Source: Candidatus Zhuqueibacterota bacterium (GTDB lineage: Bacteria; Zhuqueibacterota; Zhuqueibacteria; Residuimicrobiales; Residuimicrobiaceae). Taken from it: a stretch of 61,457 bases of DNA. The notes under the pieces were generated by a model. That model was not told the origin of the DNA. It made no database searches and was given only the letters and a program-made list of their open reading frames with translations. Where the stretch lies: positions 1 through 61,457 of the forward strand of contig CAUJEL010000019.1 in the NCBI GenBank assembly GCA_963169875.1, read 5' to 3'. The translations under genes and the position numbers were made by a program. Positions 3,676-23,334 of this stretch are shown piece by piece. How positions within the stretch are numbered: position 1 is the stretch's first letter; every line of letters begins with the position of its first letter.

Positions 3676-4854
3676 ATGAAGAAAAAAAACATCCTCATCG
3701 CAGTGGCCGTGGTGATCCTCCTGCTCTTGGCCTATCGCATCGGCGTCCTGTTGTTCGGCGGATCGGACGATGCCGCACAGCGCGGCGGCCAGATGCCCAT
3801 CGCCATTGAGGTCGAACCGGTTGTGAACGAGTCCATCCAGGAGATCCGCCACTTTACCGGCTCCATCCATCCCATCTACCAATACATCGTCGCTCCAAAA
3901 GTATCCGGACGCCTGCTGCGCATCAACAAACGCATTGGCGATTGGGTGCGAGCCGGTGAGGTGATCGCCACCATCGATGATGCGGAGTATCAGCAGTCGG
4001 TGCGCGAGGCGGAGGCCAACCTCAAGATTGCTGAATCTTCTCTTCTGGAAGCCAGGAGCCAATTCGTTCTGGCCACACAGGAACAGGAACGCGTCAAACT
4101 CTTGCAGCAGAAGGGCATCGCGTCTCCCGCTGAACTGGATGCTGCCAATACCAATTACATCGCCCAGCAGTCGCGGCTGGAACTCAGCCAGGCGCAGGTG
4201 GAACAGCGTCAGGCGGCCCTGAAATCCGCCCAGATCCGGCTTGGATATACGACGCTGGCAGCCAATCAGTCCGGATTCATCGGAGAACGCTATGTCGACG
4301 AGGGTGCCTTGCTCTCGCCCAATTCGCCGGTCGTGTCCGTGGTCGGCATCGATCAGGTCATCGTGCGCACCACCATCATCGAGCGCGATTATGGCCGCAT
4401 TGCCAACGATCAGGCGGCCACCGTCCGCGTCGATGCTTTTGCGGACGAAGCGTTCGCCGGACGAGTGGCGCGGATCGCACCGGTCCTGGATGAAGCTTCC
4501 CGCATGGCCCAAATGGAGGTGGAAGTCGATAACGCCGGGCGCAAGCTGAAACCCGGCATGTTCGCCAAGGTGAGCGTCGTTTTATCGCAGAACGAAAATG
4601 CCCAGATCGTGCCCAGCAAAGCCATCGTCGGCCAAAACGGAACCAGCAGCGTGTTCCTGGTCGATGCGGAGAAGAAAACTGCTCGCCACGTGAAGGTACA
4701 GACCGGCATTATCAACGGTGAAAAAACAGAAATCATCACGCCGCGGCTGGACGGCCGGGTTGTCACCCTCGGCCAGCACCTGCTCCAGGACGGCAGTCCT
4801 GTTATCCTGCCATCCCCGCAGACGCAAGAGAAGAATCCATCAAGCAAAAATTGA
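3676..4854 (+). CDS. RND efflux periplasmic adaptor (HlyD/AcrA-like membrane fusion protein)
   Basis: A 392-residue adaptor of a tripartite pump. Residues 1-25 are a basic start plus one membrane anchor (NILIAVAVVILLLLAY). Next come the biotinyl-lipoyl half-motif (VSGRLLRINKRIGDWVRAGE), a long alpha-helical hairpin rich in Gln and Ala, the second lipoyl half (IRLGYTTLAANQSGFIGE), a beta-barrel domain and the membrane-proximal domain. It bridges the inner-membrane pump and the TolC-like channel. It is the first gene of a three-gene operon: 24 bases to the pump gene, which then overlaps the channel gene. The ribosome-binding site is weak. No lipobox Cys is visible, so it is probably anchored by the N-terminal helix. 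Confidence 0.93.
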   Translation: MKKKNILIAVAVVILLLLAYRIGVLLFGGSDDAAQRGGQMPIAIEVEPVVNESIQEIRHFTGSIHPIYQYIVAPKVSGRLLRINKRIGDWVRAGEVIATIDDAEYQQSVREAEANLKIAESSLLEARSQFVLATQEQERVKLLQQKGIASPAELDAANTNYIAQQSRLELSQAQVEQRQAALKSAQIRLGYTTLAANQSGFIGERYVDEGALLSPNSPVVSVVGIDQVIVRTTIIERDYGRIANDQAATVRVDAFADEAFAGRVARIAPVLDEASRMAQMEVEVDNAGRKLKPGMFAKVSVVLSQNENAQIVPSKAIVGQNGTSSVFLVDAEKKTARHVKVQTGIINGEKTEIITPRLDGRVVTLGQHLLQDGSPVILPSPQTQEKNPSSKN

Positions 4855-4878
4855 GCACCAAAACCAGGAGTCTCGGCT

Positions 4879-7800
4879 ATGGCTTTTGTCAGCGGTCCCA
4901 TCAGGCGGCCCATATTAACCACCATCGTTTTTCTCATCATCGTCGTGATCGGACTCATCTCCTATTCACGGCTCACCATTGACTTGATGCCGGAAATTGT
5001 CTATCCGACCATTTCGGTATCGACGGATTATGGCAATGTTGGACCCCAGGAGATGGAGGAGTTGATCACCCGTCCGCTGGAGGAGACCCTTGCGGCGGTG
5101 CAGGGTGTGGAAGAGATCACGTCGACGTCCAGCGAAGGCAGCAGCAACATCCGCTGCGCGTTCACCTGGGGAACGGATCTGGATGTGGCCACCAATGATA
5201 TCCGTGATCGCATCGACCGGGTTCTGTCGCGATTGCCTGAGGATATCGAGAGGCCGCAAATCCGCAAGTTCGATCTCTCGGCAACGCCGATCCTGTTCAT
5301 CGGTGTCGCCAGCGCGATGAATCCGCTGGAGCTGCGTCAACTGGTTGAAGATCAGGTCAAGTACCGGCTCGAGCGCGTGCCGGGCGTGGCGGCCGTGAAT
5401 ATCTGGGGCGGATTGAATCGCGAGATCCACGTATCCTTACGGGCGGCACAAATCAAGGCGCTGGGTCTTTCCACCGACCAGATTATCTCGGCGCTGCGCA
5501 GCGAAAATCGCAACATCCCCGCCGGCCTCTACGAACGTGGCAACCTGGAGATCCTCATCCGCACCCAGGGTGAGTACCGTAATCTGGATGAAATCCGCAA
5601 CACGGTCATCACCATGCGTGAGGGCACGCCCATTCAGATCAGGGATGTGGCGGATGTCGAAGATTCCTGGGAGGAAGTGCGTTCGCAGAACCGCTTGAAC
5701 GGCAAACCCGGATTGCGCATGTTCCTGAACAAACAGTCGGGCGCCAATACGGTCCAGGTCGCCGAAGCCGCCAAGCAAGAGATCGAACGCATCAATCAGG
5801 ATTTGCCGCAGATTCAGTTGATCCCTACCATGGATACGTCTGTGTATATCAGACAATCCATCAATTCAGTGGGCAATTCCACGCTCATCGGCGGTGTTCT
5901 GGCCATCCTGATTTTGCTGCTTTTTCTGCGCAATCTCTCGAGCACGTCCATTATCGCCACCGCCATTCCCATTTCCATCATCGCCACCTTTGGACTGATG
6001 TATTTTGGCGGATTCACGCTCAATATCATCACCTTTGGCGGGCTGGCGCTCGGCATCGGCATGCTGGTCGACAATGCCATTGTAGTGCTGGAAAACATCT
6101 ACCGTTACCGCGAGAATGGACTGTCGCGACTGGATAGCGCTATCAAGGGATCGGGCGAGGTCAGCGGCGCCATCATCGCCAGCACCCTGACGACCATCGT
6201 GGTCTTTTTTCCGGTGGTTTTTATTCGCGGCATGTCCGGCATCATGTTCCAGCAGATGGCGTACGTCGTGGTTTTTTCGTTATTATGCTCCCTGCTGGTG
6301 GCCTTGACCCTGGTGCCGATGTTGTCGTCGCGTTTTTTGCGCTACCGCCCGGTGCAGCATGGCCGCAAGATCAGCCAGCTGGAAAAGGTCTACGCGATCA
6401 GCCAGAACCTCTTCGAGCGCCTGGAACTCAATTACGCCAATCTGCTGCAAAAGGCTTTGCATCATCGCAAAATGATTCTCTTATCGACTTTGGGTCTTTT
6501 TATTTTCTCCGTCTTTCTCGTCCGCTTCATTGGTGTCGAACTGATGCCGCAGGCGGATGAGGGCGAGGTACGGCTGAGTCTGGAGACTGCGGTCGGCTCC
6601 AAGTTGGAGGTCATCGATCAGGCTGCGCTTCAGATCGAGGAAATCGTCCGCCGTGAGGTGCCGGAGATGACCACCATGATGACGCGCGTGGGTGGCGGCG
6701 GCTGGGGCGGCGGCGGTAATTCGGGCGACATTCGCATCACCCTGGTTCCCAAAGCAGACCGCAAACGCAGCAGCGAGGAGGTGGCCAATGATCTGCGCAA
6801 GGCGGTGAGCGGAATCCCCGGCATCCTTGTCCGGGCGCGCGCCGGGCAGAATTTCATGACGCGCCGTTTCGGATCTTCGTCGGGAGACGCCATCAGCGTC
6901 GAGGTGCGCGGCTACGATCTCCACACCGCCCAGGCGCTGGCCAAACAGGTCGATGAGATCGTCAAAAAAGTGCCGGGCATCACCGATACCCGTATCAGCC
7001 GCCAGGAGGGCAATCCGGAGCAGATCATCCGCATCGACCGGCAAAAGGCCTCAGATCTGGGTTTGACAGTCACGCGCATCGGTGAAGCTTTGCAAACCGC
7101 GGTGGGAGGGACCTATGCTTCCTATTTCCGCGAGGGCGGCAAGGAGTATCGCATTCTGGTGCGTTTGAGCGAAGGAGACCGCCGTGATCTGGCTGATCTC
7201 CTCGATCTCACGGTCATCAATAACCGCGGCGTCGCCGTGGTGCTGCGCAATGTGGTCAGCACACAACCGCAGGAAGGGCCTTCGCAGCTGGAGCGCAAGG
7301 ACCAGGAGCGCATCATCACCATCGATGCCAATTTCACTGGCCGCGACATGGGCTCCGTGATTTCAGATATTCGCGAGCGTCTACACCGCATCCCCATGCC
7401 CAAGGATTTTGCCATCCTCTTTGGCGGCGATTATGAAGAGCAGCAGGAGGCGTTTCAGGAACTCCTGGTTGGTTTGATTTTGGCTATTTTTCTTGTTTAT
7501 CTGGTCATGGCCGGACAGTTTGAGTCTTTTCGCGATCCGTTCATCGTGCTGTTCTCGATCCCCATGGCGGTGATCGGGGTGACGTTGACCATGATTCTCA
7601 CCAACACGATATTCAGCATGCAGGCTTTCATCGGCTGCATCATGCTGGCCGGTATCGTCGTCAACAATGCGATCCTGCTGGTGGATCATACCAATCAACT
7701 GCGCCGCAATGAAGGGCTTGAACTGGCGGAGGCGATCACCACGGCTGGCAAACACCGGCTGCGGCCGATCCTGATGACCACAATGACCACCGTGTTGGGC

Positions 7801-7974: not shown

Positions 7975-9464
7975 AATCATTTCTCATTGCGATTCTGTCA
8001 GCCTGTTTTATTGCAACTTCATATGCACAAGAGTATCCTTTTTCCGGCATCAGCGGTGCGGATACGCTGCGGCTGGGCGTGCAGGATGCCCTGTTCATCG
8101 CCCTTGAGCGCAATGCCGCGGTCACCATACAATGGCGCGAACAAAGGATCGCCGAGACCGTGGCCAATGAGCACCGTGCACAGTTCGATCCGGTGTTGTC
8201 AGCCGGTGCAACCAAGACGGAGAGCAAGAGTCAGCGCTTTCTTGGCTCCCGACCCGAGCCGTTTGAGCTGACCACGGTGCGCACGCAGTACGAGGCCCAG
8301 CTGTCGCAAATGCTGCCCACGGGCACCACCGTCGCGCTGGTCTCTTCTTTTTCAGGGAGCAACTCGAGCATTTATCTGGATCAGTATGTCGGCACCATGG
8401 GGGTGACCTTCTCGCAGTCCCTGCTGCAAGGAGCGGGCTTTGGCGCTAATCTGGCGATGTTGCGCCGCGCCCGTCTCGATGTGGAGATCACTCGGGCGGA
8501 GATGAAGGCGGTTGCCGAACAGACGGTTGCGGACGTGGAGACAGCTTATTGGGGGTTCTATCTGGCCGGACGCGAAGTGGAGATTCAACGGGAATCGTTG
8601 ACCCTGGCGGAACAACAGCTGCAGGAATCCCTGGAGCGCGTGGCTGTGGGCAAGCTGCCGAGTCTGGAATTGGCGGCAGTGCATGCCGAGGTGTCGACGC
8701 GGCAGGAGGCACTCATCGATGCGCAGAGCCGTTTCGAGCAGGCGCGGTTGCAGTTGATCTATCTGCTGAATCCGGCGCGTAGCGACATCTGGTCCATTAT
8801 GCCGGTGCTGACCAATCAACCTGTGGTGCCAGAGGATGAGTTGGGCGAGATCGCATTGCATCAGGCGTTGGGGCTGCAATATCGTCCGGATCTGCAACAG
8901 GCTGAACTGGCGCTGCAAAAGGGCGAGTTGGATATCGCGCGAACCCGTAACGGTTTGCTGCCGAAACTGGATTTATTTGTCTCCCTGGGACGCACTTCTT
9001 ATGCGCAGAGTTTCAAGGAAGGCTTGCCGGACTACAAAAGTCCGTTTTATGATGTTTCCGGCGGACTGACGCTGGCGTTTCCAGTGCTCAATCGCGCGGC
9101 GCGCGCCGAGGCGGCGCAGGCGCGCTTTTCGCGCGAGCAGATGCAATTATCTTTTGATAACATGAAGCGCCTGGTGGAGCGGGATGTGCGTTCCGCCTAT
9201 ATTGAGGTGCTGCGCACGCGCAAGTTGACCGAGACTTGCAAGGTGACGCTGGAGCTGCAGGAGAAAAAGCTCGACGCAGAGCTGGAGAAATTTCGCGTCG
9301 GCCGTTCCACCAACTATCTGGTGCTGCAGGCGCAGCGCGATTTCACCGCCAGTCAGCTGGATGAGGCGAGATCGATCGTCGATTATCTGGATGCATTGAT
9401 CCGGTTGTACCAGATGCAAGGCACGCTGCTCGAGCGCAGGGGGATCGTCAATCTGGCGGAATAG
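7971..9464 (+). CDS. TolC family outer-membrane efflux channel
   Basis: A 497-residue outer-membrane factor. Residues 1-19 form a signal peptide (FLIAILSACFIATSYAQ). The rest has the repeated amphipathic helical OEP architecture: two halves each with long heptad-rich helices, for example AEQQLQESLERVAVGK and ELQEKKLDAELEKFRVGR, with the conserved FRVGRSTNYLVLQAQRD region near the C-terminus. The start codon overlaps the pump stop (ATGA), so translation is coupled. It completes the tripartite pump. No terminator with a T-run follows; a 15-base palindrome lies about 100 bp downstream at 9567-9581. Confidence 0.93.
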   Translation: MKSFLIAILSACFIATSYAQEYPFSGISGADTLRLGVQDALFIALERNAAVTIQWREQRIAETVANEHRAQFDPVLSAGATKTESKSQRFLGSRPEPFELTTVRTQYEAQLSQMLPTGTTVALVSSFSGSNSSIYLDQYVGTMGVTFSQSLLQGAGFGANLAMLRRARLDVEITRAEMKAVAEQTVADVETAYWGFYLAGREVEIQRESLTLAEQQLQESLERVAVGKLPSLELAAVHAEVSTRQEALIDAQSRFEQARLQLIYLLNPARSDIWSIMPVLTNQPVVPEDELGEIALHQALGLQYRPDLQQAELALQKGELDIARTRNGLLPKLDLFVSLGRTSYAQSFKEGLPDYKSPFYDVSGGLTLAFPVLNRAARAEAAQARFSREQMQLSFDNMKRLVERDVRSAYIEVLRTRKLTETCKVTLELQEKKLDAELEKFRVGRSTNYLVLQAQRDFTASQLDEARSIVDYLDALIRLYQMQGTLLERRGIVNLAE

Positions 9465-9793: not shown

Positions 9794-10606
9794 TTACACA
9801 TATTCGCGCCGCAACGTTGCCAGTACGTCGTCGGTGAGCTGTTCGGCCTTGCGGAGATCGGCGAATTTTTCCAGCAGGTCGTCGACGCCGAGACGCCGTT
9901 TTTCCTGGTTGGAAATGTCATCGATGATCAGCCCCTTGTGCATCATGATGGTGCGATTCCCCACATCCAGAGCCTGCTGCATGCTGTGTGTCACCATGAC
10001 CGCTGTTAAACGGCCTCTCTCGATGAATTGCTGGGTGAGCTTGATGACTTGCGCCGCGGATTTCGGATCCAGCGCGGCCGTGTGTTCATCCAGCAGCAGG
10101 ACCTTGGGCTCGGCGATCACCGCCATGAGCAGGGTGAGGGCCTGCCGCTGTCCCCCGGAGAGGGAACCGATCAGATTGTTGAGCCGGCCCTCCAGTTGCA
10201 TCTCCAGCCGTTTGACCTCATCGCGATAATGATCGAGCTGTTTGGCATTCAGGCCTGGCACGGGATGTCTTTTTTTATTACGCAGGGAGGCCATGTGGAG
10301 ATTTTCCGCAATCGTCATTTGCGGAGCGGTCCCGGAAAAAGGATTCTGAAAAACGCGGGCGATGTAAAAAGCGCGCTGGAAATCCTTCTGCGAGGTCACA
10401 TCATGCCCGTCAATCATGATTTGCCCCCGGTCCGGCAGGAATGAACCGGCGATGGCGTTGAGCAGGGTGGATTTGCCCGATCCATTGGTGCCGATGATGG
10501 TGACGAATTCGCCCTGTCGAATGTCCAGATCGATGCCGCGCAGTGCATGGGTTTCGTTGATGGTGCCCACATTGAATTTTTTATGCAGCCCGCTGATCTT
10601 TATCAT
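9794..10606 (-). CDS. ABC transporter ATP-binding protein (partner of the fused permease)
   Basis: A 270-residue single ABC ATPase. Walker A is GTNGSGKSTLL near residue 39, the signature is LSGGQRQALTLL near 148, and Walker B with the catalytic region is VLLLDEHTAALD near 170. Residues NPFSGTAPQMTIAENL match the insertion after the Q-loop in the ATPases that pair with TrpX/TrpY-type tryptophan or ABC_sub_bind transporters. The start at 10606 has AGGGCTT upstream. It lies 229 bp downstream of the permease/substrate-binding fusion, the gap holding no recognisable gene, and is very probably the energy-coupling subunit for it. Confidence 0.93.
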   Translation of the reverse strand: MIKISGLHKKFNVGTINETHALRGIDLDIRQGEFVTIIGTNGSGKSTLLNAIAGSFLPDRGQIMIDGHDVTSQKDFQRAFYIARVFQNPFSGTAPQMTIAENLHMASLRNKKRHPVPGLNAKQLDHYRDEVKRLEMQLEGRLNNLIGSLSGGQRQALTLLMAVIAEPKVLLLDEHTAALDPKSAAQVIKLTQQFIERGRLTAVMVTHSMQQALDVGNRTIMMHKGLIIDDISNQEKRRLGVDDLLEKFADLRKAEQLTDDVLATLRREYV

Positions 10607-10835: not shown

Positions 10836-13800
10836 CTAAATTCCTTTGGCCTGTGCAAATATCTCTGCCGGAATGGTTATGCCATATTCGCGCGCGAGTG
10901 CCAGATTGATATACCTTTTTTCCGGGACATAATCGTTTATTGGAATATCTTTGGGATTTTGACCGCGGATGACTCGCACAGCCATCCCGGCGGCAGCCCT
11001 GCCCACTTCGACATAATCGGCGCCGATCCCCATGAAAGCGCCGTGATGGACATCATCCGGCGTATTGGTGAAATAAGGGATTTTGTGCTGCCGCAAAAGG
11101 GCCGCGATGGCATCCACGGCCAGGATGACGGTGTTGTCGCCCGACGTCAGAAACAGATCCGGTTTTTTATTGACAAGCGACTTTAAGGCGTCCATGACCT
11201 CGCCGGTGCTGCTCACCGTCGCTTCCAGCAGTTCAAAGCCATAAGACTGCGCGGCATCCCGCGCTTTATAGGTGCAAGCCTCAGAACAGGCTTCGGCGGG
11301 ATTCCAGATCATGGCGATTGTTTTGGCTTGCGGGAAAATATCCCGCATGACTTTGAGTGTGCTGGCAACCGGTTGAAAGGTGGCGACGCCGGTCACGTTG
11401 GGGAGATGATCGGCGCTGTTCTTCGCCACGCCCATCCGGTAAGGATCTGTGACAGCGCCGAACACATGCGGTATGGTTTTATTGGCGTTGGCCATGACCT
11501 GGAGTGCGGGCGTGGATATGGTGATGATATAGTCATAATTCTGGCGCACAATATCCTGCGCGATGGACTGGGCCATGTAGAATTCATTCTGGGCGTTTTT
11601 GTGATCAACTGTGATGTTTTTCTGCGCCAGAATTTGACTCTTTTCCAGTTCCTGCAGGACTCCTCTGCTGGCTTCCATTTGCAAAAGATTGTCGCTGAAG
11701 CGGAAGAGCGCCAGCTTTTGCGGCGCGCCAGCCGCAGGCCCCTGCTGCTGATTTTGGCTGTCCAGAACCTTGTGCGCGCGCCGGACGACAGCCTCTTTCA
11801 GGTCGATGCCGCAGGCGCGCGCCGCGTCCCGGTTCACCATGAACAGGGTGGCTTGCGTCTGTGAGATCGGCATCCGGGCGGGATCCTCGCCCTGCATCAC
11901 CCGGCTGATGTACTGGCCGCCTTCATATCCGGTTTGATAATAATCAGGTCCCAATACAGCCAAAGCCCCTTTTTCGATGAATTCTGAATCGACCGAAAAC
12001 ACCGGGATGCGGTTTTCTCCGGCAACCTTGGCATAACTGTCAAAGCTGACATTGACCGTGTTGTCCCCGCCGTTCAAAAAAATCTCGGCGCCCTTTATGA
12101 CCAGCGATCGCGATGCCTCCAGCACCTCGGCGGGATTGGTCACCGTTGCCTCGATGAGTTGCTGTTTGGTTCGTGCGGCGTGCGCGCGCAGCTTGAGCAC
12201 CACCGACTCGGAATTGGCCTCCGAACTGTTCCAGACGATGCCGATCTTGTTGCGCTCCGGGAACATTTCTTTGATCAGGTCGAGCATCCCCTCGACAGGG
12301 GGAAAGCAGGCGACTCCGGTCATGTTGGCCAAGTGATCCTCGGGCGTTTTGGCAGCGCCGATGCGATAGGGATCGTAAATGTACGTGAAAACCACTTTGG
12401 TATCCGATTGATGCGATGCAAATTGCACGGCTGACTGCACGCAGGGCGTGGAGAGCGGCACAATGATATCGACTTTTCGCCGCATCAAATCCTGCATGAT
12501 GGCGTTGATCATGGCAAAGTCAGCCTGGGCGTTCTTGTAGATGATTTCGATATTCTGTCCATCCACATAACCATGCTCCGCCAGGGATTTCAAGATGCCT
12601 TCTTTGCAGCGTTCGACATTGGGCTCCATGGCGAACTGAACGATGCCGATGCTGATTTTTTTCTCCGCCTCACCCCCAATTATCAGGTTCGCCTCCGCCT
12701 GCACAGCAGGAGGGATGGTGATGCCCAGCTTTTCCGCGGTCTTGAGGTTCAGTCCAAAGGTGAGCTTTTTATATTTTTCAAACGGAATACGGCCGGGATC
12801 CTCGCCTTTGAGCACGCGGTCGATGAGCGCAGCAGCCTGGATGCCGCTGGAGGTATAATCATAGCCCAATACGGCGAACGCGCCATCCTGTAACCGTTCC
12901 ACATCGCTTAAAAAGATGGGAATGCGCTTGCCTTCGGAAGCCTTGACAATCGCTTCAAATGCGGAATAGACTGTGTTGTCCGGGCTGAGTACGAAGGCGT
13001 CGATGTTTTTTTGCGCCAGCGAGACCGCCGCCTGGTACACCTCCGCAGAACTGGTGATCGTCGCCCCTTTGAACGTGACATCCGGATAACTTTGCGCAGC
13101 TTTTTGCAACAGTTCCACATTAAAAACCGAATTGGCTTGGGCCGGATCCCAGATCGCTGCAAAAGTGATCGGGCCTGTGAAGAATTTGCGCACCATAGCC
13201 ATGGTCTTGTCCATCGGCACCCATCCATACACGCCGGTCACATTGGCGAGATGGCTCGAGTCGCTCGTTCCGGCCTTGATGATGAAAGGATTGGCCACAG
13301 TCGCAAATATAATCGGCTTGTCGCTGATTTTGTTGATGGCCGCCTGCGTGCAGCCGGTGGAGATGGTCACGATGACATCGACGTCCTCGCGCTGGAATTT
13401 GTCAAGGATCGTATTCACCGTCGACAATTCGCCGTTGGCGTTCTCCAACAGCAGGGTGCAGGTTTCTCCGTCGATGTATCCGAGCCGTTTCAGCTCTTCG
13501 ACCAGACTGTCACGCGTGATATTCAGCAGACCATTGTCCGTCAGCTGCACACACCCAATCTTGAAATGCTGCTGCAGGGGCGCCGGCTTGTTGACAATGA
13601 GGTGATAACCGGGGATGATCAGCGCCACAAGGACCGCGGTTGCGATGACAGCTTGCAGCACTTTTTTGTTGGCCGCCCAGCCTTTCACACGCTCTCCCAG
13701 ATTGCCGGCGCCTTTTTTCCCGCCGACTGATTTTGAAAATACCAGTGTGATGAATACAAAAACCGCGGTGAGCAGTTTGAGATCGATCGGATTCATCCCT

Positions 13801-14576
13801 ACATAAAGCGCGATGGCGATCATCAGGCGAAAGATGATGGCGCCTGCGATCACGCTGAGCACGCGCACAAACATGGAGCTTTTTTTCAGCACCGATTCAC
13901 CGATGATCACCGCTGCAAGGCCGATGACCACGGTGCCAACACCCATGCCGATATCGGCAAAACCCTGATATTGCGCCACCAAAGCGCCGGAAACCGCCAC
14001 AAATCCGTTGGCCAGTGCGATCCCAAAGATGGTCATTCTGGCGACATTGACGCCGTTCGCCGAGGCCATGGTCGCATTGTTGCCGGTCACCCGCATGGCA
14101 ATGCCCAGATCCGTTTTGAAAAAGAGCGACATCACCAGCCAGAACAGGGTCATCAGGGTTGTCAGGGCAATGGCCGTCCAGACTTCGGGATGCAGTCCAG
14201 GATTAATAACCGCCAACCAGGAGAACAGGGTTTTTTCATTTAAAAGGGGAATGTTGGAGCGCCCCATGATGTGCAGGTTGATGGAGTAGAGCGCAGTCAT
14301 CACAAGTATGCCTGCCAGCAATCCGTTCACTTGAAAACGTGTGTGAATGAATGCTGTGGTCGCTCCGGCAAGCACACCGATGACAAAGGCAGCGGCCAGG
14401 GCCAACAGCGGATTAATTCCCGCGGCGAGAAGTACGGCGGCTGTTGCTGCCCCTGCCGTGAAACTTCCATCTACTGTGATATCGGGAAAATCGTGTATGC
14501 GGAAGGTGATAAAAATCCCCATGGTCATAATGGCATAGAGAAATCCAAGATTCAAGGCACCTACCCAAAGTTCCAT
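10836..14576 (-). CDS. ABC transporter permease fused to three tandem TrpX-like substrate-binding domains
   Basis: A 1246-residue fusion. Residues 1 to about 290 are a BPD_transp_2-type permease (MELWVGALNLGFLYAIMTMG; RIHDFPDITVDGSF; the cytoplasmic loop GNNATMASANG). A further hydrophobic helix at about 310-327 is followed by three successive periplasmic-binding domains of the ABC_sub_bind (PF04392, TrpX-like) type at about 335-640, 645-945 and 955-1246. Each repeat carries the same landmarks: IGCVQL, IGIVQF or LALFRF at the start; a VTISTG, VPLSTP or ITISTP strand; a DP(Y/F) turn; a NVTGV or NMTGV turn; IWDP, VWNS or IWNP; SPDNTV or GDNTV; and LGYDY, LGPDY or IGADY. The domains are diverged, so they may bind different ligands. 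The gene follows the STAS gene by four bases. Confidence 0.92.
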   Translation of the reverse strand: MELWVGALNLGFLYAIMTMGIFITFRIHDFPDITVDGSFTAGAATAAVLLAAGINPLLALAAAFVIGVLAGATTAFIHTRFQVNGLLAGILVMTALYSINLHIMGRSNIPLLNEKTLFSWLAVINPGLHPEVWTAIALTTLMTLFWLVMSLFFKTDLGIAMRVTGNNATMASANGVNVARMTIFGIALANGFVAVSGALVAQYQGFADIGMGVGTVVIGLAAVIIGESVLKKSSMFVRVLSVIAGAIIFRLMIAIALYVGMNPIDLKLLTAVFVFITLVFSKSVGGKKGAGNLGERVKGWAANKKVLQAVIATAVLVALIIPGYHLIVNKPAPLQQHFKIGCVQLTDNGLLNITRDSLVEELKRLGYIDGETCTLLLENANGELSTVNTILDKFQREDVDVIVTISTGCTQAAINKISDKPIIFATVANPFIIKAGTSDSSHLANVTGVYGWVPMDKTMAMVRKFFTGPITFAAIWDPAQANSVFNVELLQKAAQSYPDVTFKGATITSSAEVYQAAVSLAQKNIDAFVLSPDNTVYSAFEAIVKASEGKRIPIFLSDVERLQDGAFAVLGYDYTSSGIQAAALIDRVLKGEDPGRIPFEKYKKLTFGLNLKTAEKLGITIPPAVQAEANLIIGGEAEKKISIGIVQFAMEPNVERCKEGILKSLAEHGYVDGQNIEIIYKNAQADFAMINAIMQDLMRRKVDIIVPLSTPCVQSAVQFASHQSDTKVVFTYIYDPYRIGAAKTPEDHLANMTGVACFPPVEGMLDLIKEMFPERNKIGIVWNSSEANSESVVLKLRAHAARTKQQLIEATVTNPAEVLEASRSLVIKGAEIFLNGGDNTVNVSFDSYAKVAGENRIPVFSVDSEFIEKGALAVLGPDYYQTGYEGGQYISRVMQGEDPARMPISQTQATLFMVNRDAARACGIDLKEAVVRRAHKVLDSQNQQQGPAAGAPQKLALFRFSDNLLQMEASRGVLQELEKSQILAQKNITVDHKNAQNEFYMAQSIAQDIVRQNYDYIITISTPALQVMANANKTIPHVFGAVTDPYRMGVAKNSADHLPNVTGVATFQPVASTLKVMRDIFPQAKTIAMIWNPAEACSEACTYKARDAAQSYGFELLEATVSSTGEVMDALKSLVNKKPDLFLTSGDNTVILAVDAIAALLRQHKIPYFTNTPDDVHHGAFMGIGADYVEVGRAAAGMAVRVIRGQNPKDIPINDYVPEKRYINLALAREYGITIPAEIFAQAKGI

Positions 14577-14580
14577 TGCA

Positions 14581-15804
14581 TCAGCCTTTCAATTCTATAA
14601 TCCCGATCATCCCGTTGCTGAACCGGCTCTGCCCCAGCATGTGCTGAACTTTTTTGATTTCCAGTTCCGTGAGAATTCGCTGTACTTCTTCAGAGAACTG
14701 TTCAATATTTTTACTCAATGGCCCCTTCTCAAAGACACCGGCATGGAGATGCAGCGGTGAGCCGCCGGAGAAAAGTTTTTGCACGGCCTCGGTGCAGGCC
14801 GCCTTGTCACGGCAGACCAGGCCCGTTGCGGCGACGATATGATTTTGGTCACAGGGATCAATCGGATAATTGATCCATTCGCCCACCTGGCCGGCATCGA
14901 AAATTTCACCGCCGTTTGCGGGTTTGTGCTCCCTTACCGGGATTTGTTTCAGGTTCATGCCATACAACCCCCTGCTCTCGGCCAGCAGCACGATGCCGGC
15001 AAGGGGTGAACGGAGCGGAAGCACCCGCATCCATTCCACCAGTTGATCGAGCGTGATGAATGCCTCCGTGGTCTCAAAAGATGCGAGGACGCTATAGGAC
15101 CCGGCAAACGCGAATCCGTGGAAAAACTTGCATTCTGTGCCAACATCTTCTCCCGTATAAAACATGTAATCCACCGCCGGCCGCTTGACCGCCGGGTAAT
15201 AGAAGATGTTTTTGTTGATGATGAGGGTTTCACCGAAGAGGTTTTTGTATTCTTCATATCGTTCACCGACTGTGGCCAGTCCGGCGCCAAAGTGCAACTG
15301 CGATTGCGGGATGCTGATGACATCCTGTTCATCATAGCCGGCGCTCAGGAGCTTCTCCTGTGAGCCAATGATCCGCAGCGTACCGGGCTCGACGCCCGCA
15401 AAAAGACGATGCGTAAAGGTGATGCCCTCGGTGGACGTGACGATGACGCCAGCCGCAGCCTGGCTGGGCGAACAGGCAAGCGCGAGCGCTGCTTCGCTGT
15501 CGGCGAGCTGAATGATGCGGTCAAATCCACTCATCCGGAAAACGCGCAAGACGCCTTCCTGAACCTTATAGATGATGATTTGACCGTCAACGCGTTCCAG
15601 CTGCTTCTGTGCATGCAAGAATATACGCAGCCCGGCGCTGCTTATAAAATTAACCTGCTCGACATCCACAACGAGGAGGCGACTGCCACCCAGTATTAAT
15701 TCATCCAATTGATTTTGTATCTCCGCCGAAGACATACTGTCGATACGTCCGGCGATGACGACTCTGGTGACGCCGTATTCATGGTTGATCGTACACGTGG
15801 TCAT
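14581..15804 (-). CDS. STAS-domain (anti-sigma antagonist-like) protein with unknown C-terminal domain
   Basis: A 407-residue cytoplasmic protein without a signal peptide. Residues 1-105 are a STAS domain like SpoIIAA/RsbV: beta strands TCTINHEYGVTRVVIAGRI, then VVDVEQVNFISSAGLRIF, where Ser56 aligns with the phosphorylatable Ser of the DSSGL motif (here ISSAGL). Residues 110-407 match nothing I recognise; they include FFHGFAFAGSYSVLASFET and HIVAATGLVCRDKAACT. The C-terminal region could be a sensor or a regulatory partner domain. The start ATG at 15804 lies 60 bases after the PKD gene and the stop is four bases from the permease fusion, so it probably regulates or is regulated with that transporter. 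No cognate SpoIIE phosphatase or HPK-like anti-sigma kinase is seen nearby except the histidine kinase at 23335-25359. Confidence 0.8.
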   Translation of the reverse strand: MTTCTINHEYGVTRVVIAGRIDSMSSAEIQNQLDELILGGSRLLVVDVEQVNFISSAGLRIFLHAQKQLERVDGQIIIYKVQEGVLRVFRMSGFDRIIQLADSEAALALACSPSQAAAGVIVTSTEGITFTHRLFAGVEPGTLRIIGSQEKLLSAGYDEQDVISIPQSQLHFGAGLATVGERYEEYKNLFGETLIINKNIFYYPAVKRPAVDYMFYTGEDVGTECKFFHGFAFAGSYSVLASFETTEAFITLDQLVEWMRVLPLRSPLAGIVLLAESRGLYGMNLKQIPVREHKPANGGEIFDAGQVGEWINYPIDPCDQNHIVAATGLVCRDKAACTEAVQKLFSGGSPLHLHAGVFEKGPLSKNIEQFSEEVQRILTELEIKKVQHMLGQSRFSNGMIGIIELKG

Positions 15805-15864: not shown

Positions 15865-18800
15865 CTATTTTCGGTTGACCACTTCGATCTTGACTTCGTC
15901 GATGGCTTTGCTGCACGGTGTCTCACGGCCGTCATCCACATGGAGTTTGACGAGATAGAGGCCCGGCTTGTCGTAATTGTGATACAGTTTGGCGCCGCTG
16001 TTACGGGTGCCATCGCCGAAATCCCATTCAAATACAAGACCATCGCCATCCGGGTCGGAGGATCCTGTGGCATCAAAAAGCACGCCATCATGCGCACCGC
16101 CGTAGAAAATCTGACGGTCTGGTCCTGCCACTGCCAGCGGCTGCGAATTGACCACGATCTTAACGGCATCTTCATCACTGGCACAGGCGCTGCCGGAATG
16201 ATCCGTGATTTTCAGTTTCGCGAGATAGGTGCCTGTGGTCTTATACAAATGTCTGGCGATGCGATCGCTCGATGTACCGCCGTCTCCAAAATCCCATTCC
16301 ACCTTCCAGCCGGTTTCATCCTGGTCAAAAGAATGGCTCGCATCAAGGATGACTTCCTGTCCCGGACATACCATTTGGTCAGGACCAGCATCAGCCTGTG
16401 GGATGTTGTTGACCCGATAGTGCAGGGTGGTGCTTGTTACACTGTTATCCAATGATAGTCCGTCATCCAGCACCAAAGTGACTTGGTAATCACCGCTTTT
16501 GACGTAGCGATGTTTCACCTGCATCCCGGAGGCGGTCTGGCCATCCCCAAAATGCCACATCCCCGTGACAGTTTTGCCGTCCATCATTTTCGAATCCAGG
16601 GCGCTGAATGTGATCTCTTCGTTCGGACAAGCCGCGCTTGAACTGGGACTGATGACGGGTTGCACAGGATCACTGACCATGATCCACACGGTATCCACCG
16701 CCGTATTGTTATCCGCATAGCTGTTATCGGTAACCGTCAGTTGAACCGGATGACGCCCCGCTGTGCTGAAGCGATGGCGGGCGGTGATTCCTGACTGTGT
16801 TGCGCCTGTGCCTAAACTCCAGATGTACGAAATTAATCCGCCATCAGGATCTTTTGAGCCGCTGCCATCCAGCGTGATGAGCTGCCCGAGTCCGGCCAAT
16901 TGGTCGCGGCCTGCATCGGCAATGGGCGCGTCATTGATGGTGATCATTTTTTGCGTGATGGAAGAACTGCAAATCGTCGATGCGCCGGTGTTGATGATCA
17001 ATTTGACCAGATAATTGCCGGATTGGCTGTAAAGGTGGGTCACGCTCCTGCCCGCGGCGCTGCTGCCGTCGCCGAATTCCCATTGATAGGTTTGGATGGG
17101 GGCTGCAGTGCTGAGGGAGGAAGAGCCATCAAAAGTGACAGATTGGTTCACCGCTGCGACAGCCGGGCAGGTGATTGTCGCAAAAGGTGCATCATGTACC
17201 GTGACCAGCAGCTCATCGGTGTTGGTGTTGTCACAGTCGCTGCGCAAATCGCCGGTGATCGTGAGGACGACGCGATAGACGCCGGCTTTTTTATAAGCGT
17301 GTGTCGGCGTCGCGCCGCCCCCGGTGGTGCCATCCCCAAAATCCCAAAAATAGTTATTCACAACGCCGTCAAAATCGCGCGATGCGGTGCCATCGAAATT
17401 AACAGGCGCATGGGTGCACACTTCCTGATCCGGGCCGGCCATGGCGATGGGCGATTCGATGATCTGAATGCTCTTAACGGCAATACCGGTATTGCAGGGC
17501 AACCCTGAATCATCCTGCACGGTCAGGCGCACCTGATAAATGCCATCCTTTTTGTATATTTTGGTTGGATTCAAACCTTCGGCATTCGTGCCATCACCGA
17601 AATCCCAATGATATTTCAGTAAACCATTTTCAGGATCTTTTGATGAGCTCGCATTGAATATGATGACCTCACCAGCACAATAGCTTTCATTGGGTCCTGC
17701 GTCCGCCACAGGCGGGTCATTGATGACTGCGGTTATGGACTGGCTGTGGCGGGAGTTTTCCAGACCCCATCCATCGTCCACGGTGAGAATCACCGGGTAG
17801 GTTCCTGCAGCCGTGAATTTGTGCAAGGCCAGCATACCCGCGGCGGGCTTGCTGCCATCGCCAAAATTCCAGGTGTAACTCAAAGGATCTCCATCCGGAT
17901 CGGTCGAAGCAGATCCATCAAAAAGCAGGGTTTTATCGCAGCTGTAGATGTTTTTTCCGGCATTGGCTATGGGTGCGCTGTTGATCCGCACCAGAACCGT
18001 ATCTCGCGAGATGCTGTTTTCAGTGCTGCTGTTGTCAGAAACCGTCAGTATGGCGGCATAGGTGCCAGGCGAGGGAAATGTCCTGCGCACTTGCGCAGTT
18101 GCTGCCTGATGTTTGCCATCGCTGAACTGCCAGGTGTAGGAGAGGGCGTCTTTGTCAAGATCGAACGAATGGCTGGCATCGAACGTGACCGCGGCACCCG
18201 GGACGGTCAGGACATCCGATCCCGCCTCGGCTGTGGGTGGTCCATTGACCACAACCACAGCTTCATCGAAATCGGCGGCCTGAGGATGGCCGGTGTTATC
18301 CTTGACCGTGAGCCTGGCTGTGTACACCCCCGGTTTGGAATAGGCGTGCGATGTATGCCCGCCAGAGGCTGAATGACCATCGCCAAAATCCCAGAGATAG
18401 GCCGCGATGTTGCCATCCGGATCTTGAGAACCGGATCCGTCAAAAGTGAACGTTTGACCAGCAGCTCCTTTTTGATCTGGTCCGGCATCGGCGAAGGGTT
18501 TTTCATTGACGATGACCTGAAAGGCATCGCTGGTCTGGTTGTTCCTGGTGCCTGAATTGTCGGTCACCGTCAATTTGCCCGTGTAGGTTCCAGGCTTGCG
18601 GTAGACATGGATTGGTGCGATACCTGTGCCGAGTGAGCCATCGCCGAAATCCCATTCATAGGATATGATTTCCCCATCCTGGTCCCTGGAGGCAGCGGCT
18701 GACCACGTGACTTCAGAATCGGTCACAAACTGATCCTGGCCCGCATGGGCCACTGGCGGCTCGTTGATGAACACCTGCAGGCTGTCACAGCGCCGGTCGG

Positions 18801-20691
18801 AATCGGTTTGGGAATCATCCTGGACGGTCAAAACGACGGTGTAATTGCCGGACTTTTTGTAGGCATGGGTGACCCGCACGCCGCTCCCCGTGGCGCCGTC
18901 GCCAAAAGCCCATTGATAGGCGATCAACGCGCCATCCTTATCCAAGGACGCGCTGCCATCAAAGGTGAGCGTCTCTTCGATCGCACCTTTCATGTCGCGC
19001 CCCGCGCTTGCCTCAGGCGGTGCATTGATAAAAACAAGGACTTCATCAAAATCCATGCTGTTGCCAACAGCGGCATTGTCGGTGACGGAAAGCCTGGCCC
19101 GGTAGGTGCCGGGTTTTTGATAGGCATGTTGGACCACTTTGCCGCTTGCCTTGCCGTCATCCCCAAAATCCCATTGATAGGAGACCAACTCGCCATCGCT
19201 GTCGCTGCTTTTTTCACCATTAAACGTCAATACTTGTCCGGTCGATCCCCGCAGATCTTCGCCAGCCACAGCCTTGGGCCGTGCATTCACCCATACCTTG
19301 ATTTCGTCCGTGGCTGAATTGCAGGGGCTATCAGAATCATCCACAACCCTGAGCTGTACACGGTACGTGCCCGGATTCACGAAGAGATGGCTGGTCTTCG
19401 CGCCTGCCGCGTTTTTGCCATCGCCAAAATCCCATGCGAAGGAAGTGAGTGAGCCATCCTGGTCGGAGGAGAGGGAGGCGTCAAAGGCGACCATTTGATT
19501 GGGCGCCGTGATCACGTCCTGACCGGCTTTGGCCAACGGCGGCTGGTTGACTTTGACCTTGAACCGCTCAAAAGCGCTGTTGCCCACTTCTCCTGAATTG
19601 TCGCTGACAATTAATAAGGCGTTATAAGTCTTTTGCGCTTCATATTGGTGCGCGATGCGGCTGCCCTGTGCATGGGTGCCATCACCGAACTCCCAATAGA
19701 ATTGCAGCAGATCGCCATCCGGATCCGTGGAGGAGTTGGCATCGAAGACGATGGAGTGGCAATCGGAGAGCGCGATGAGACTTTTTTGGATAACCGGGCG
19801 TTGATTCAGTTTTATCAAATGGATGGGTAGAGAAATGGGCAGGAGCTGGTCCTGATCGTCCGTGATATACATCGAAACGTCATTGGGGGATTCGCTGCCC
19901 TGACCGAGCGCGACGGCGCATGCACGGCCCGCCTCCAGCGGTTCCAGAGTGGCCACGCTCTTGACCCACTCACCCTGACCTGAGGACACGATGGGCAGAT
20001 TGGAGCGGAACGCCGTCACCAGTTGCAGGGAGGCGCCGGCCAGATCAAAATTATGAACCGTTATGGAGTGGGCTTTCTCGGGAACCGGGAAAGTGATGTT
20101 GGCGACATTCTCATCCTTCCGCAGACGGAAAGTCGGCGAATAGGAGAACATTTGTATCTGTGCCGGCGTCACATTGAGTGTCGCCGATGTGCTCAAGCGG
20201 ACATCAAAGGCATTGGCATCATTTCCTGAAATGCCTTGCACCACGAGTTTGAAATAATAGTAGGCGCCAATTTTTTCCCCCTCTTGGGGTGCGATCTGCT
20301 TCAGATTGAACCAGCTGTTGTTCAGATCCGCGTTTTCACCCGAGGTCGCGGATGCCAGCAGATTCCCCGCCTGCAAGTCAGTATCGTCAGGTTTGGCGTT
20401 CTGCAGTGTCGCAGCGGAGTAAGCGCCTTTGCCGCCATAGAGTTCAAAGCGTGTTGTGGTATTCCAGGCTGAAAAGGCGAGATCCAAATCACCGCCGCAA
20501 TCCATATCATACACACGGAGATAGAGGCTGTCTCTCACACTCTCGGCCACCTGAAAAAACACAATCTGCCTGAAATCATCATCCCCTTCGCGAATGGACT
20601 GCTGTGGCCCATAATTGACCAGCAGGATATTCTCCTTGGCCGCGACAAGTCCCGCAACCATCAGGCAAGCCGCCATCATCCTCGTCTTCAT
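15865..20691 (-). CDS. Secreted protein with 15 PKD domains
   Basis: About 1608 residues. The N-terminus MKTRMMAACLMVAGLVAAKE is a signal peptide; alternative ATGs lie at 20700 and 20718, but GGGAGAG favours 20700 or 20691. Residues from about 25 to 300 form a non-PKD head with beta-rich segments. After that I count 15 consecutive PKD modules of about 85 residues, each with an AGPD-like entry, a (F/S)DPDG turn and a W(D/E/Q/N)FGDG core; module 12 is divergent (WSLGTG) and module 7 has FSDG. The protein ends with the last module, without a sorting domain, LPXTG or membrane anchor. PKD arrays usually act as spacers or binding modules in surface or secreted proteins. It lies between the FecR and STAS genes. 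Confidence 0.92.
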   Translation of the reverse strand: MKTRMMAACLMVAGLVAAKENILLVNYGPQQSIREGDDDFRQIVFFQVAESVRDSLYLRVYDMDCGGDLDLAFSAWNTTTRFELYGGKGAYSAATLQNAKPDDTDLQAGNLLASATSGENADLNNSWFNLKQIAPQEGEKIGAYYYFKLVVQGISGNDANAFDVRLSTSATLNVTPAQIQMFSYSPTFRLRKDENVANITFPVPEKAHSITVHNFDLAGASLQLVTAFRSNLPIVSSGQGEWVKSVATLEPLEAGRACAVALGQGSESPNDVSMYITDDQDQLLPISLPIHLIKLNQRPVIQKSLIALSDCHSIVFDANSSTDPDGDLLQFYWEFGDGTHAQGSRIAHQYEAQKTYNALLIVSDNSGEVGNSAFERFKVKVNQPPLAKAGQDVITAPNQMVAFDASLSSDQDGSLTSFAWDFGDGKNAAGAKTSHLFVNPGTYRVQLRVVDDSDSPCNSATDEIKVWVNARPKAVAGEDLRGSTGQVLTFNGEKSSDSDGELVSYQWDFGDDGKASGKVVQHAYQKPGTYRARLSVTDNAAVGNSMDFDEVLVFINAPPEASAGRDMKGAIEETLTFDGSASLDKDGALIAYQWAFGDGATGSGVRVTHAYKKSGNYTVVLTVQDDSQTDSDRRCDSLQVFINEPPVAHAGQDQFVTDSEVTWSAAASRDQDGEIISYEWDFGDGSLGTGIAPIHVYRKPGTYTGKLTVTDNSGTRNNQTSDAFQVIVNEKPFADAGPDQKGAAGQTFTFDGSGSQDPDGNIAAYLWDFGDGHSASGGHTSHAYSKPGVYTARLTVKDNTGHPQAADFDEAVVVVNGPPTAEAGSDVLTVPGAAVTFDASHSFDLDKDALSYTWQFSDGKHQAATAQVRRTFPSPGTYAAILTVSDNSSTENSISRDTVLVRINSAPIANAGKNIYSCDKTLLFDGSASTDPDGDPLSYTWNFGDGSKPAAGMLALHKFTAAGTYPVILTVDDGWGLENSRHSQSITAVINDPPVADAGPNESYCAGEVIIFNASSSKDPENGLLKYHWDFGDGTNAEGLNPTKIYKKDGIYQVRLTVQDDSGLPCNTGIAVKSIQIIESPIAMAGPDQEVCTHAPVNFDGTASRDFDGVVNNYFWDFGDGTTGGGATPTHAYKKAGVYRVVLTITGDLRSDCDNTNTDELLVTVHDAPFATITCPAVAAVNQSVTFDGSSSLSTAAPIQTYQWEFGDGSSAAGRSVTHLYSQSGNYLVKLIINTGASTICSSSITQKMITINDAPIADAGRDQLAGLGQLITLDGSGSKDPDGGLISYIWSLGTGATQSGITARHRFSTAGRHPVQLTVTDNSYADNNTAVDTVWIMVSDPVQPVISPSSSAACPNEEITFSALDSKMMDGKTVTGMWHFGDGQTASGMQVKHRYVKSGDYQVTLVLDDGLSLDNSVTSTTLHYRVNNIPQADAGPDQMVCPGQEVILDASHSFDQDETGWKVEWDFGDGGTSSDRIARHLYKTTGTYLAKLKITDHSGSACASDEDAVKIVVNSQPLAVAGPDRQIFYGGAHDGVLFDATGSSDPDGDGLVFEWDFGDGTRNSGAKLYHNYDKPGLYLVKLHVDDGRETPCSKAIDEVKIEVVNRK

Positions 20692-20983
20692 GTTCACCAT
20701 TCTCTCCCAGTTGATCATGGAGTATTTACACCTGCGAATTTATTAATCTGAATTATGCACCGTTGAACGCAGAGACGTACAAAAAATAGAAAAACATATA
20801 ATTGTATCGGAATCAACTTTGATGCAGAAATGACGTTCAAATTTTAACTTGCTGGATAATCCCGGTAAAAACAGCTCGGCGGTTTATGATCCGGATTGCG
20901 GCTGATTTGTCCGCACTTCACCGGTGAGCTGAATCAGGATTATAAAAAATGTTGACACCTTATCAGGGTATGAACAGAACAGG

Positions 20984-23317
20984 TTAATTAGGATAAAAGA
21001 CTTTTTGATTTCCGTAATAGTCTTCCAGCACCAGGCTTTTCAGCTTGATGACTTCCCGGGTGCCCTTGGGGAATTTGAAAGATCCTTCATAAACCTGTGT
21101 CGAAGAATTAAAGCGCAAATACCCTGAATTCACCATGTCACCAGCCTGGAGGTCAACGCTGGCCGTTCTCCGCAGTCCGGAACTGTCTTTTGCTTTCACC
21201 CGCACATCGACGATATCGTCCAGGGCCGCGATCTTTTTGGTGAGGGAATAATCCACCAATTCGGGCGGTGTCTTGTCCAGCATGATTTTGTGCTGCACAA
21301 CACACTCGTTTCCCAGCGCATCAAGTGCCGTGAGTGTGACCAGGTTCTCGCCCGGGGTCAATATAATGGTATGAGCGAATTGGCCTTCCGGGAAGCTCAG
21401 CCCAAAGCCGTTAAAGCTCAGCGTCACCGCATTCTCGACCGTGCCGCTCAGACGCAGGGTGTCTTCTGAAGAGATGGCCGGGATTTTGCTGGAGAGCGAA
21501 ATACGTGGTGCTTCCTTGCTGACGTGGACCCATAGCGTGTCGTTTTTATGGTATCCCGCTGGTGTCATGACGGTTAACAGCATCTGGCTGCTCTCCGGGA
21601 TGTCCAGCAGGGACATCTGAAAGTATCCGGAAGTATCTGCAAAAGTGCGCAGCAGGACACCGTTTTTTACCAATTCGATGGCCACCGCAGAGAGGGGCAC
21701 TGTTTTTCCTCTGAGATCCAGCGTCCTGCCACGGGCGAGAAATTGTTTGGGTTGCAGCTGTTTCAGAGAATGATCATATTCCACCACAACCTCGCGATTG
21801 GACGCGTAGATCACGGTGCGCATGATACGGGATTCATTACCGCTCAAATCCCTTGCGGTAATATGGATCCTGTTGACGCCCTCCTGGAGCAGGTGCGGTA
21901 TGCGGAAGTGATGATTTTTGAGGTCAGGTGCGTTTTTTCCATTGATGCTCAGCTGGACGTCCGGTTCGGTTTCCCCGGCAATATGGAGGGTATCTGTCTG
22001 AAAGATTTGTTGTTCCTGAGGATGATTGACATACAAAAACGGTTTGTCCGTGTCAGAAAAGACATAGAAAAATCCTCTCAAACTGACCGGACTCGGGAAA
22101 CCTTCGTTGTCGATGGCCGCGACATTCCAGTAGTAGGCGCCATCCTGCAAATCTGTGAGGCGGAGAGAATCACTGGTGATATCATCGCGGTTGAGCACTA
22201 CGTTGGTGAAGGAATAATCGGCGGATGCCTGCACATGGTAGCGTTGTGCGCCCGATACGGCTTTCCATTTCAGTGTGATGGCGCCGCCGGGAAGGATGGC
22301 ATTGTTTGTCGGCGCAGTCAGCTCGGTGCCTCTGAGAAGTTGTTTTGACCGACCAATGGACCCATCCGCCGCAATTTTGGAACCCTGGTTTTCTTCCAGG
22401 ATGATGGAGGACACTTCCGAGGAGACGGTGATCTCGCCTTCATAATTAGCGATCTTGGTGCCTTCCTCCTCCTTTTGCACCCAAAAACTCTTTGAGTTGA
22501 TTTCCGTTTTCACGCCCGGGATATTCAGATTGAATTTTTTCTTTTTTTGGTTGGATTGAAGGAGCGCAAACGCAGCCCCTTTTTCCAGCTTAACACTGGA
22601 GTCTCTTTCCTTGTTGAGCAGATCAACGCGCATTTTTTGAATCACGGCCTGCGAATTCTCGTTCAGACGGATGCGACTCTGGTCTTGAAAGGAAATTTCA
22701 GCATAGGAATTAGACAGGGTGCGAACGCGATTGTTCTCAAATAATTTGGAGGATATCGAAAGATCTCGCCATAACATCTCATTGGCTTCCTTGCCCTGCA
22801 CCGTGCCTGAACGGTCGCTGATCATGGCATCAGCAGTGCTGTTGCGCTTCTCCAGGGCTTCAAGATGCGCCTTTTCAGCCAGCAAACGGGATTCCGTCGC
22901 CAGCCGGATGCTGTTCTGCCAATTACCCGATTTTCTCTCCCTGGCAGCCTCGTCATGGAAGGAAATGGCATGCGCGATGTTGTCGCTGGCGAACAATTTG
23001 GCGCCGACATCGGTTGCGGTTTGTATCGCTGTGCGCGCAGCCGCCAATTCCCGGGATGAACGCTGGATGATGCCTGCCGGGATCACAAGCCTCATGCCCG
23101 GCCGCAGATCCGAAGGCGCGCTGAGCTGGTTGGCCTTGAGGATCTCATTCCAGAGATCCGGCTCCCCCAGGACTTCCTGGGCAAGTTCGCGCGGTCCCTG
23201 CCCCTCACGAACGATAACCGTTTTAACATCCTCCACCTGGGCAGATGCGCCGGGAACGCCGATTCCTGCCATCAGGATGACCAGGCTGAGAATTGATAGC
23301 CGCTTCGCTTGATCCAT
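20984..23317 (-). CDS. Secreted LysM and FecR domain protein with Ig-like repeats
   Basis: About 777 residues. The start is taken at ATG 23317 (GTGGGA upstream); a GTG at 23329 is possible. A signal peptide (LSILSLVILMAGIGVPGASAQ) leads to a LysM-like domain at about 30-80 (PRELAQEVLGEPDLWNEILK, RPGMRLVIP), an alpha-helical linker, and a FecR domain at about 190-300 (NSYAEISFQDQSRIRLNE; VKLEKGAAFALL; IPGVKTEINSKSF). A fibronectin-like module follows (AYYWNVAAIDNEGFPSP), then several Ig-like modules with GVNRIHITARDLSGNES-type strands. It is a periplasmic or surface structural protein. It precedes the PKD gene by 292 bp and follows the histidine kinase by 17 bp. Confidence 0.88.
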   Translation of the reverse strand: MDQAKRLSILSLVILMAGIGVPGASAQVEDVKTVIVREGQGPRELAQEVLGEPDLWNEILKANQLSAPSDLRPGMRLVIPAGIIQRSSRELAAARTAIQTATDVGAKLFASDNIAHAISFHDEAARERKSGNWQNSIRLATESRLLAEKAHLEALEKRNSTADAMISDRSGTVQGKEANEMLWRDLSISSKLFENNRVRTLSNSYAEISFQDQSRIRLNENSQAVIQKMRVDLLNKERDSSVKLEKGAAFALLQSNQKKKKFNLNIPGVKTEINSKSFWVQKEEEGTKIANYEGEITVSSEVSSIILEENQGSKIAADGSIGRSKQLLRGTELTAPTNNAILPGGAITLKWKAVSGAQRYHVQASADYSFTNVVLNRDDITSDSLRLTDLQDGAYYWNVAAIDNEGFPSPVSLRGFFYVFSDTDKPFLYVNHPQEQQIFQTDTLHIAGETEPDVQLSINGKNAPDLKNHHFRIPHLLQEGVNRIHITARDLSGNESRIMRTVIYASNREVVVEYDHSLKQLQPKQFLARGRTLDLRGKTVPLSAVAIELVKNGVLLRTFADTSGYFQMSLLDIPESSQMLLTVMTPAGYHKNDTLWVHVSKEAPRISLSSKIPAISSEDTLRLSGTVENAVTLSFNGFGLSFPEGQFAHTIILTPGENLVTLTALDALGNECVVQHKIMLDKTPPELVDYSLTKKIAALDDIVDVRVKAKDSSGLRRTASVDLQAGDMVNSGYLRFNSSTQVYEGSFKFPKGTREVIKLKSLVLEDYYGNQKVFYPN

Positions 23318-23334
23318 GATAAATCCCACAAAAA

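Follow-up and report, generated by a model that had tools for sequence, protein, structure and literature searches.

What does an ATP-binding cassette (ABC) permease that carries three binding domains in its own chain do, and which genes work with it? The question is raised by a 61,457-nucleotide stretch of Candidatus Zhuqueibacterota bacterium (assembly GCA_963169875.1, contig CAUJEL010000019.1), here called the window, in which the gene at 10836-14576 on the minus strand encodes such a chain. We suggest that three genes, spanning 15804-9794(-), are best explained as encoding one ABC importer of TrpXYZ descent: the fusion permease, an ATPase and a STAS-domain protein that we call STAS-X. The preliminary description of this DNA had left the STAS gene (14581-15804) unconnected to the fusion; we found that it accompanies the permease across phyla and is very probably a dedicated functional partner of the transporter.

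Architecture and recurrence of the fusion permease

The fusion gene is a single open frame with an ATG start, 1246 codons and no internal stops, and GC content is level across its domain boundaries. Pfam matches BPD_transp_2 (PF02653) at residues 6-276 (9e-22) and PF04392 in three separate stretches (2e-153 in total); in a whole-genome search the three domains score 169.6, 184.3 and 176.6 bits against a cut-off of 25.9. From the N-terminus, the chain comprises a TrpY/BPD_transp_2 permease domain (residues 1-285, 13722-14576(-)) with its helices in the AlphaFold2 (AF2) model, a linking segment (residues 286-330, 13587-13721(-)) and binding domains alpha (residues 335-637, 12666-13574(-)), beta (638-940, 11757-12665(-)) and gamma (949-1246, 10839-11732(-)), with pairwise identities of 31.3, 32.8 and 33.1%. 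Hydropathy and the AF2 model place a loop rich in Lys and Arg (six of them within 285-309; low model confidence at 285-296) and then an extra helix at about 304-328 behind the permease domain. Judged by hydropathy and the positive-inside rule, this transmembrane helix would place the binding domains outside. The frame, the Pfam matches and the identities of 31-33% confirm the initial reading of the chain as a TrpY-like permease with three diverged TrpX-like domains, and the frameshift at domain boundaries for which a check had been advised is absent. Downstream lies an ABC ATPase of 270 residues (9794-10606(-); Pfam), the cognate nucleotide-binding domain, with all motifs intact (Walker A GTNGSGKST, signature LSGGQ, Walker B LLLDEH, H-loop THS); an adjacent nucleotide-binding domain is conserved across loci.

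The window genome is a 5.0-Mb assembly in 215 contigs, so an assembly or annotation artefact fusing separate genes might be suspected. We scanned 84,980 species genomes with two conserved peptides as seeds, which makes all counts lower bounds, and obtained 54 loci. Among about 45 complete chains (those cut by contig ends were left out), the permease carries three domains in at least 11 other loci, two in 21 and one in 12; domain order is fixed and junctions are conserved. The fusion chains occur in metagenome-assembled genomes (MAGs) labelled Aminicenantes, Omnitrophota, Deltaproteobacteria/Desulfobacterota, Bacteroidota/Ignavibacteria, Acidobacteria, Planctomycetota and KSB1. One member (locus L093) lies on a closed chromosome record, CP070825.1, with the permease and three-domain layout, and another (L089) in a named strain, Desulfoferrobacter suflitae DRH4. 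Because the layout recurs in independent assemblies, CP070825.1 included, the architecture cannot result from an assembly join, and the assembly error that the preliminary description had named as one possible refutation is ruled out; we regard an artefact as extremely improbable. The architecture had also seemed unfamiliar. No account of PF02653-PF04392 fusions, or of ABC importers with STAS and partner-switch proteins, was found in the literature searched (subscription literature and domain-architecture databases lay outside the search), but the architecture is not unique: it is one state of a series with one, two or three domains that extends over many phyla. No relatives were found on viral contigs. 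Loci L068 and L069 are nearly identical and come from MAGs labelled Desulfobulbaceae and Ignavibacteriae, respectively, of which one label or bin is probably wrong; L112 and L113 form a similar pair.

STAS-X accompanies the transporter

STAS-X (407 residues, 14581-15804(-)) ends 4 nt before the permease start. It is found directly upstream of the permease in 46 of the 49 loci whose permease frames have room upstream. Of 82 genomes in the phylum of the window, a profile of its C-terminal domain matches 4, which are exactly those with the transporter (three fused, one split; Fisher test, 6e-7). In Desulfobacterota the domain is present in 19 of 395 genomes and a permease adjoins it in 18 of these 19; in a further phylum, to judge by the label on L107 the Bacteroidota, it occurs in 4 of 395 genomes, with an adjacent permease in 4/4. 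In the divergent loci L142-L145 and genome G051, STAS-X lies between the free binding proteins (one, or two in tandem) and the permease, with the ATPase last; for G051 this order is inferred from two halves on separate contigs (L057 and L058). STAS-X is therefore independent of the fusion, being present beside free binding proteins too.

The AF2 model of STAS-X has a pLDDT (the model's confidence score) of 92.6. Residues 1-110 (15475-15804(-)) form a STAS domain by Pfam, with SpoIIAA-like profile and fold matches; in a fold search with the model, this part resembles SpoIIAA/RsbV (1th8, 6m36; template-modelling (TM) score on target 0.86-0.92) and, weakly, MlaB. The residue encoded at 15637-15639(-), Ser56, aligns with the phospho-acceptor Ser of SpoIIAA; SpoIIAA 1auz has Ser at the matching position, and chain 1tid, which we take to be a phospho-site mutant, has Ala. 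Invariant residues in the alignment include Ser55, Ser56, Glu192, His352, His354 and His388.

The last four of these lie in the C-terminal domain (residues 118-407, 14584-15453(-)), for which a fold like that of acetolactate decarboxylase is predicted. This domain had no Pfam match in any of 43 members, PF03306 included. Its predicted fold resembles acetolactate decarboxylase (1xv2, 5xne) and the PTD012 zinc fold (1xcr), with E-values of 1.9e-7 and 5e-6; towards the decarboxylase fold, the TM score on target is 0.61-0.68. Gly-Glu and HxH motifs, invariant in STAS-X, are of a similar kind in the decarboxylase; identity is 9-11%. The motifs recall the zinc ligands of the decarboxylase, and that the domain might bind zinc is a guess. 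Comparison of sequence profiles with acetolactate decarboxylase gave no significant match (hhalign probability 0.9%).

At L180 and L141, STAS-X is followed by a 349-residue gene product that looks GNAT-like by eye. A weak GNAT match also lies in the C-terminal part of the RsbW-type kinase at L101.

Partner-switch genes near the loci

Across the 490 kb that flank the loci, we counted 12 genes for SpoIIE-type phosphatases and 8 for RsbW-type kinases. The density in the window genome (14 SpoIIE-type phosphatases in 5.0 Mb) predicts about 1.4 phosphatases for that length; this figure is rough, since the loci are related and other genomes may be richer. A PP2C gene lies directly upstream on the same strand at L090, L093, L099, L100 and L107, and RsbW-type kinase genes are directly adjacent at L062, L074, L101 and L103. 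L093 combines the elements in a run of seven genes: STAS, RsbW, an NMT1-type binding protein, a dCache-HAMP-PP2C protein, STAS-X, fusion permease and ATPase. In the window genome, four SpoIIE-type phosphatase genes cluster within about 7 kb (G000:C157:17817-24388).

Such neighbours raise the possibility, already voiced in the preliminary description, that the protein is a sensor rather than a transporter. The complex would then be a transport-coupled receptor with a mainly signalling output, relayed by STAS-X to an anti-sigma/PP2C switch. The entry of PP2C and RsbW genes into the operon in several lineages speaks for it, with one PP2C carrying dCache and HAMP and another a receiver domain, as does the stock of SpoIIE-type phosphatases in the window genome. 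Against this, permease and ATPase are well conserved, the latter with intact motifs, and in the window no output protein adjoins the operon, apart from a cache histidine kinase that lies 7.5 kb upstream of STAS-X. We consider a dedicated sensor unlikely. Rather than as a choice between transporter and sensor, the system is better described as a transporter connected to a signalling switch, given the STAS protein that almost always accompanies it and the PP2C/RsbW neighbours in several lineages.

Evolution of the tethered domains

A tree built from 100 binding domains separates the fused ones into three clades by position, alpha, beta and gamma, and their order along the chain is constant. Two-domain chains are in the majority alpha-gamma, otherwise alpha-beta or beta-gamma; one-domain chains have alpha, beta or gamma. 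L067 is beta-gamma-gamma and L093 is alpha-gamma-gamma. The alpha-beta junction measures 5 residues or fewer wherever it is present; ahead of gamma, the junction mostly spans 10 to 20 residues. In the permease tree, the fused permeases form one clade (89/99) next to relatives whose binding proteins are free, and architecture switches at least 24 times. The simplest reading of these trees is that an early three-domain form underwent repeated loss and some gamma duplication. At L055, a KSB1 relative, the permease and alpha are followed by a stop, a 109-residue gamma remnant (8448-8774) and then the ATPase, an arrangement that exemplifies domain loss. The same locus has a separate substrate-binding protein gene (4250-5245) upstream of STAS-X. 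A single recent duplication giving three copies was rejected as an origin: the domains are equidistant (about 32%) and fall into three old clades.

Binding pockets and possible ligand classes

The ligand contacts of Streptococcus suis TrpX are T108, A127, T129, D152, N233 and Q273 (PMC9382623). The equivalent of Thr108 is retained in 89 of 90 fused domains and the Q273 position is Tyr in nearly all of them. The Asp152 position separates the classes: all 39 alpha domains have Gly there, 15 of 16 beta domains Cys and 33 of 35 gamma domains Thr (Gly451, Cys757 and Thr1066 in the window). Within the window, T108 and N233 are kept in all three domains, A127 and T129 in gamma only, so that the set T108/A127/T129/D152/N233 is incomplete throughout, D152 being replaced by Gly, Cys or Thr. 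Because the conserved pocket differs from class to class and the acidic D152 is absent from all three, the sequences suggest three specificities rather than plain tryptophan binding; the domains are probably not three copies of one tryptophan binder. The broader specificity that the preliminary description had offered as a use of three domains gains support, since the classes are old and distinct and differ in the residues conserved in their pockets.

Database names point the other way. On the TrpX equivalog model NF041285 the whole chain scores 537 bits, above the cut-off of 390, because three sub-threshold scores (about 171, 192 and 189 bits for the single domains) add up. We rejected a tryptophan assignment from the NCBIfam name, as every single domain is below threshold; summed hidden Markov model scores can mislabel a multi-domain chain as TrpX.

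Comparison with known systems

The genes include the set of a TrpXYZ-type importer, namely a PF02653-type permease, PF04392 domains and an ABC ATPase, and permease, ATPase and domains are homologous to the TrpXYZ tryptophan importer (TC 3.A.1.34) and to PF04392 aromatic amino acid binding proteins. Solved relatives of the window's binding domains are 3lkv, 6hni and 3lft. Unlike TrpXYZ, the family has one to three binding domains fused to the permease, a class-specific replacement of Asp152 and STAS-X as partner.

In tethering receptors to the permease, with several sites per complex, the family resembles GlnPQ (two tandem substrate-binding domains, SBDs) and OpuA (a fused SBD), which bear out the earlier remark that fusions with one or two domains are known in other ABC families. 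In GlnPQ, fused domains of different specificity compete (PMC8025302). PF02653 was the sole permease family matched here, with no homology to the GlnP/OpuA permeases; the binding protein families also differ, and three domains are found here versus one or two there. A review title in the reference list of PMC11065425 speaks of 'one, two or four' sites, whereas the window permease as a homodimer would have six. Tethered SBDs are thus already known; neither three of them on a PF02653 permease nor a STAS-X subunit was found in the literature searched, subscription literature lying outside it.

For the STAS protein, the closest parallel among ABC systems is MlaFEDB, in which MlaB binds the ATPase MlaF, with the phospho-site Thr52 within the interface (PMC7367683). 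Here too a STAS protein is encoded with ABC genes and has Ser/Thr at the phospho-site, and STAS-X matches MlaB weakly by profile and fold. It differs in the permease, which is of nutrient-importer type and not MlaE, in the second STAS-X domain of 290 residues, and in kinase and phosphatase genes nearby in some lineages; its contact with the ATPase is putative. With SpoIIAA/RsbV it shares the STAS fold and the conserved phospho-Ser. PP2C and HATPase_c_2 genes lie nearby in several lineages, with such genes directly adjacent at nine loci but not in the window. STAS-X departs from SpoIIAA/RsbV in its added C-terminal domain and its genetic tie to an ABC transporter.

Proposed mechanism

From architecture and linkage, which are observed, we infer ligands, transport and switch as follows. 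The permease would act as a homodimer, giving a complex with six tethered, outward-facing binding domains for three ligand classes, which would compete for docking on one translocation path much as the two GlnPQ domains do. STAS-X would be a cytosolic subunit bound to the ATPase, as MlaB is on MlaF. Ser56 would be phosphorylated by an RsbW-type kinase and dephosphorylated by a PP2C phosphatase, forming a switch, and the C-terminal domain, a putative sensor or enzyme, may sense the imported compound or its product. Transport would be gated by, or report to, a partner-switching pathway. We give even chances to direct binding of STAS-X to the transporter, and likewise to the wider proposal that an importer with tethered receptors is regulated, at its ATPase, by a STAS subunit that can be phosphorylated. 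The complete phospho-switch, in which kinase and PP2C act on an ATPase-bound STAS/metabolite-sensing subunit while up to six receptors of three ligand classes serve one channel, is put forward tentatively and is somewhat doubtful as a whole.

Several observations weigh against this scheme. The decarboxylase likeness comes from a fold match and like motifs, and the profile comparison is not significant. L067, the clearest exception, has fusion and ATPase with no STAS-X in 8 kb upstream, and L106 is similar; conversely, STAS-X at L141 and L180 (8311-9588 in the latter) has no permease within 8 kb. The PP2C enrichment is measured against the density in the window genome, and loci that are related do not count independently. 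Most loci, the window included, have no PP2C or kinase gene adjoining the operon. STAS-X could also act solely on an anti-sigma factor, without touching the transporter, because its STAS domain is of the normal SpoIIAA type.

This last possibility, together with the loci that have no neighbouring STAS-X, suggests an alternative account: a plain importer whose extra receptors raise local concentration and broaden the substrates, with STAS-X in a separate sigma-factor pathway that shares the operon. GlnPQ and OpuA indeed have fused domains and no STAS subunit (PMC8025302, PMC11065425). Yet the C-terminal domain of STAS-X tracks the transporter across phyla, its gene almost always stands directly before that of the permease, and it does so with fused and free binding proteins alike. 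We find the plain importer rather unlikely.

Other genes around the fusion

Upstream of STAS-X lies a gene for a PKD-repeat protein of 1617 residues (15865-20718(-)), which is also present in the two nearest relatives and is a lineage-specific neighbour. Further upstream on the same strand follow a FecR/Glucodextran_B-domain protein (20984-23329) and a dCache-HAMP histidine kinase (23335-25359). In Bacteroidota loci, a predicted lipoprotein that by eye looks like Leu/Ile/Val-type binding proteins directly follows the ATPase (L090 11635-12903, L099 9919-11178, L107 11614-12909) and is a possible further receptor. The window genome (G000) also has a separate, classical TrpX-TrpY-TrpZ operon on contig C71 (L059 1123-3905), followed by genes that by eye are Rieske-like, PhyH-like, SHMT-like and Lrp-like; this 9.5-kb contig may be a contaminant of the MAG.

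Implications

The authors of the MlaFB study asked whether STAS regulation of ABC transporters is more widespread and whether the phospho-site is used, and found no second STAS-ABC case in the PDB (PMC7367683). The present family is a second candidate for such a case and concerns an importer; some genomes have putative kinase and phosphatase genes next to each other. If the proposed mechanism is true, it would provide a natural example of an ABC transporter regulated by a STAS protein under phosphorylation control, as has so far been proposed for MlaB. The family also offers a natural series of one, two or three tethered receptors on the same permease, which suits the study of how transport depends on receptor number and linker length.

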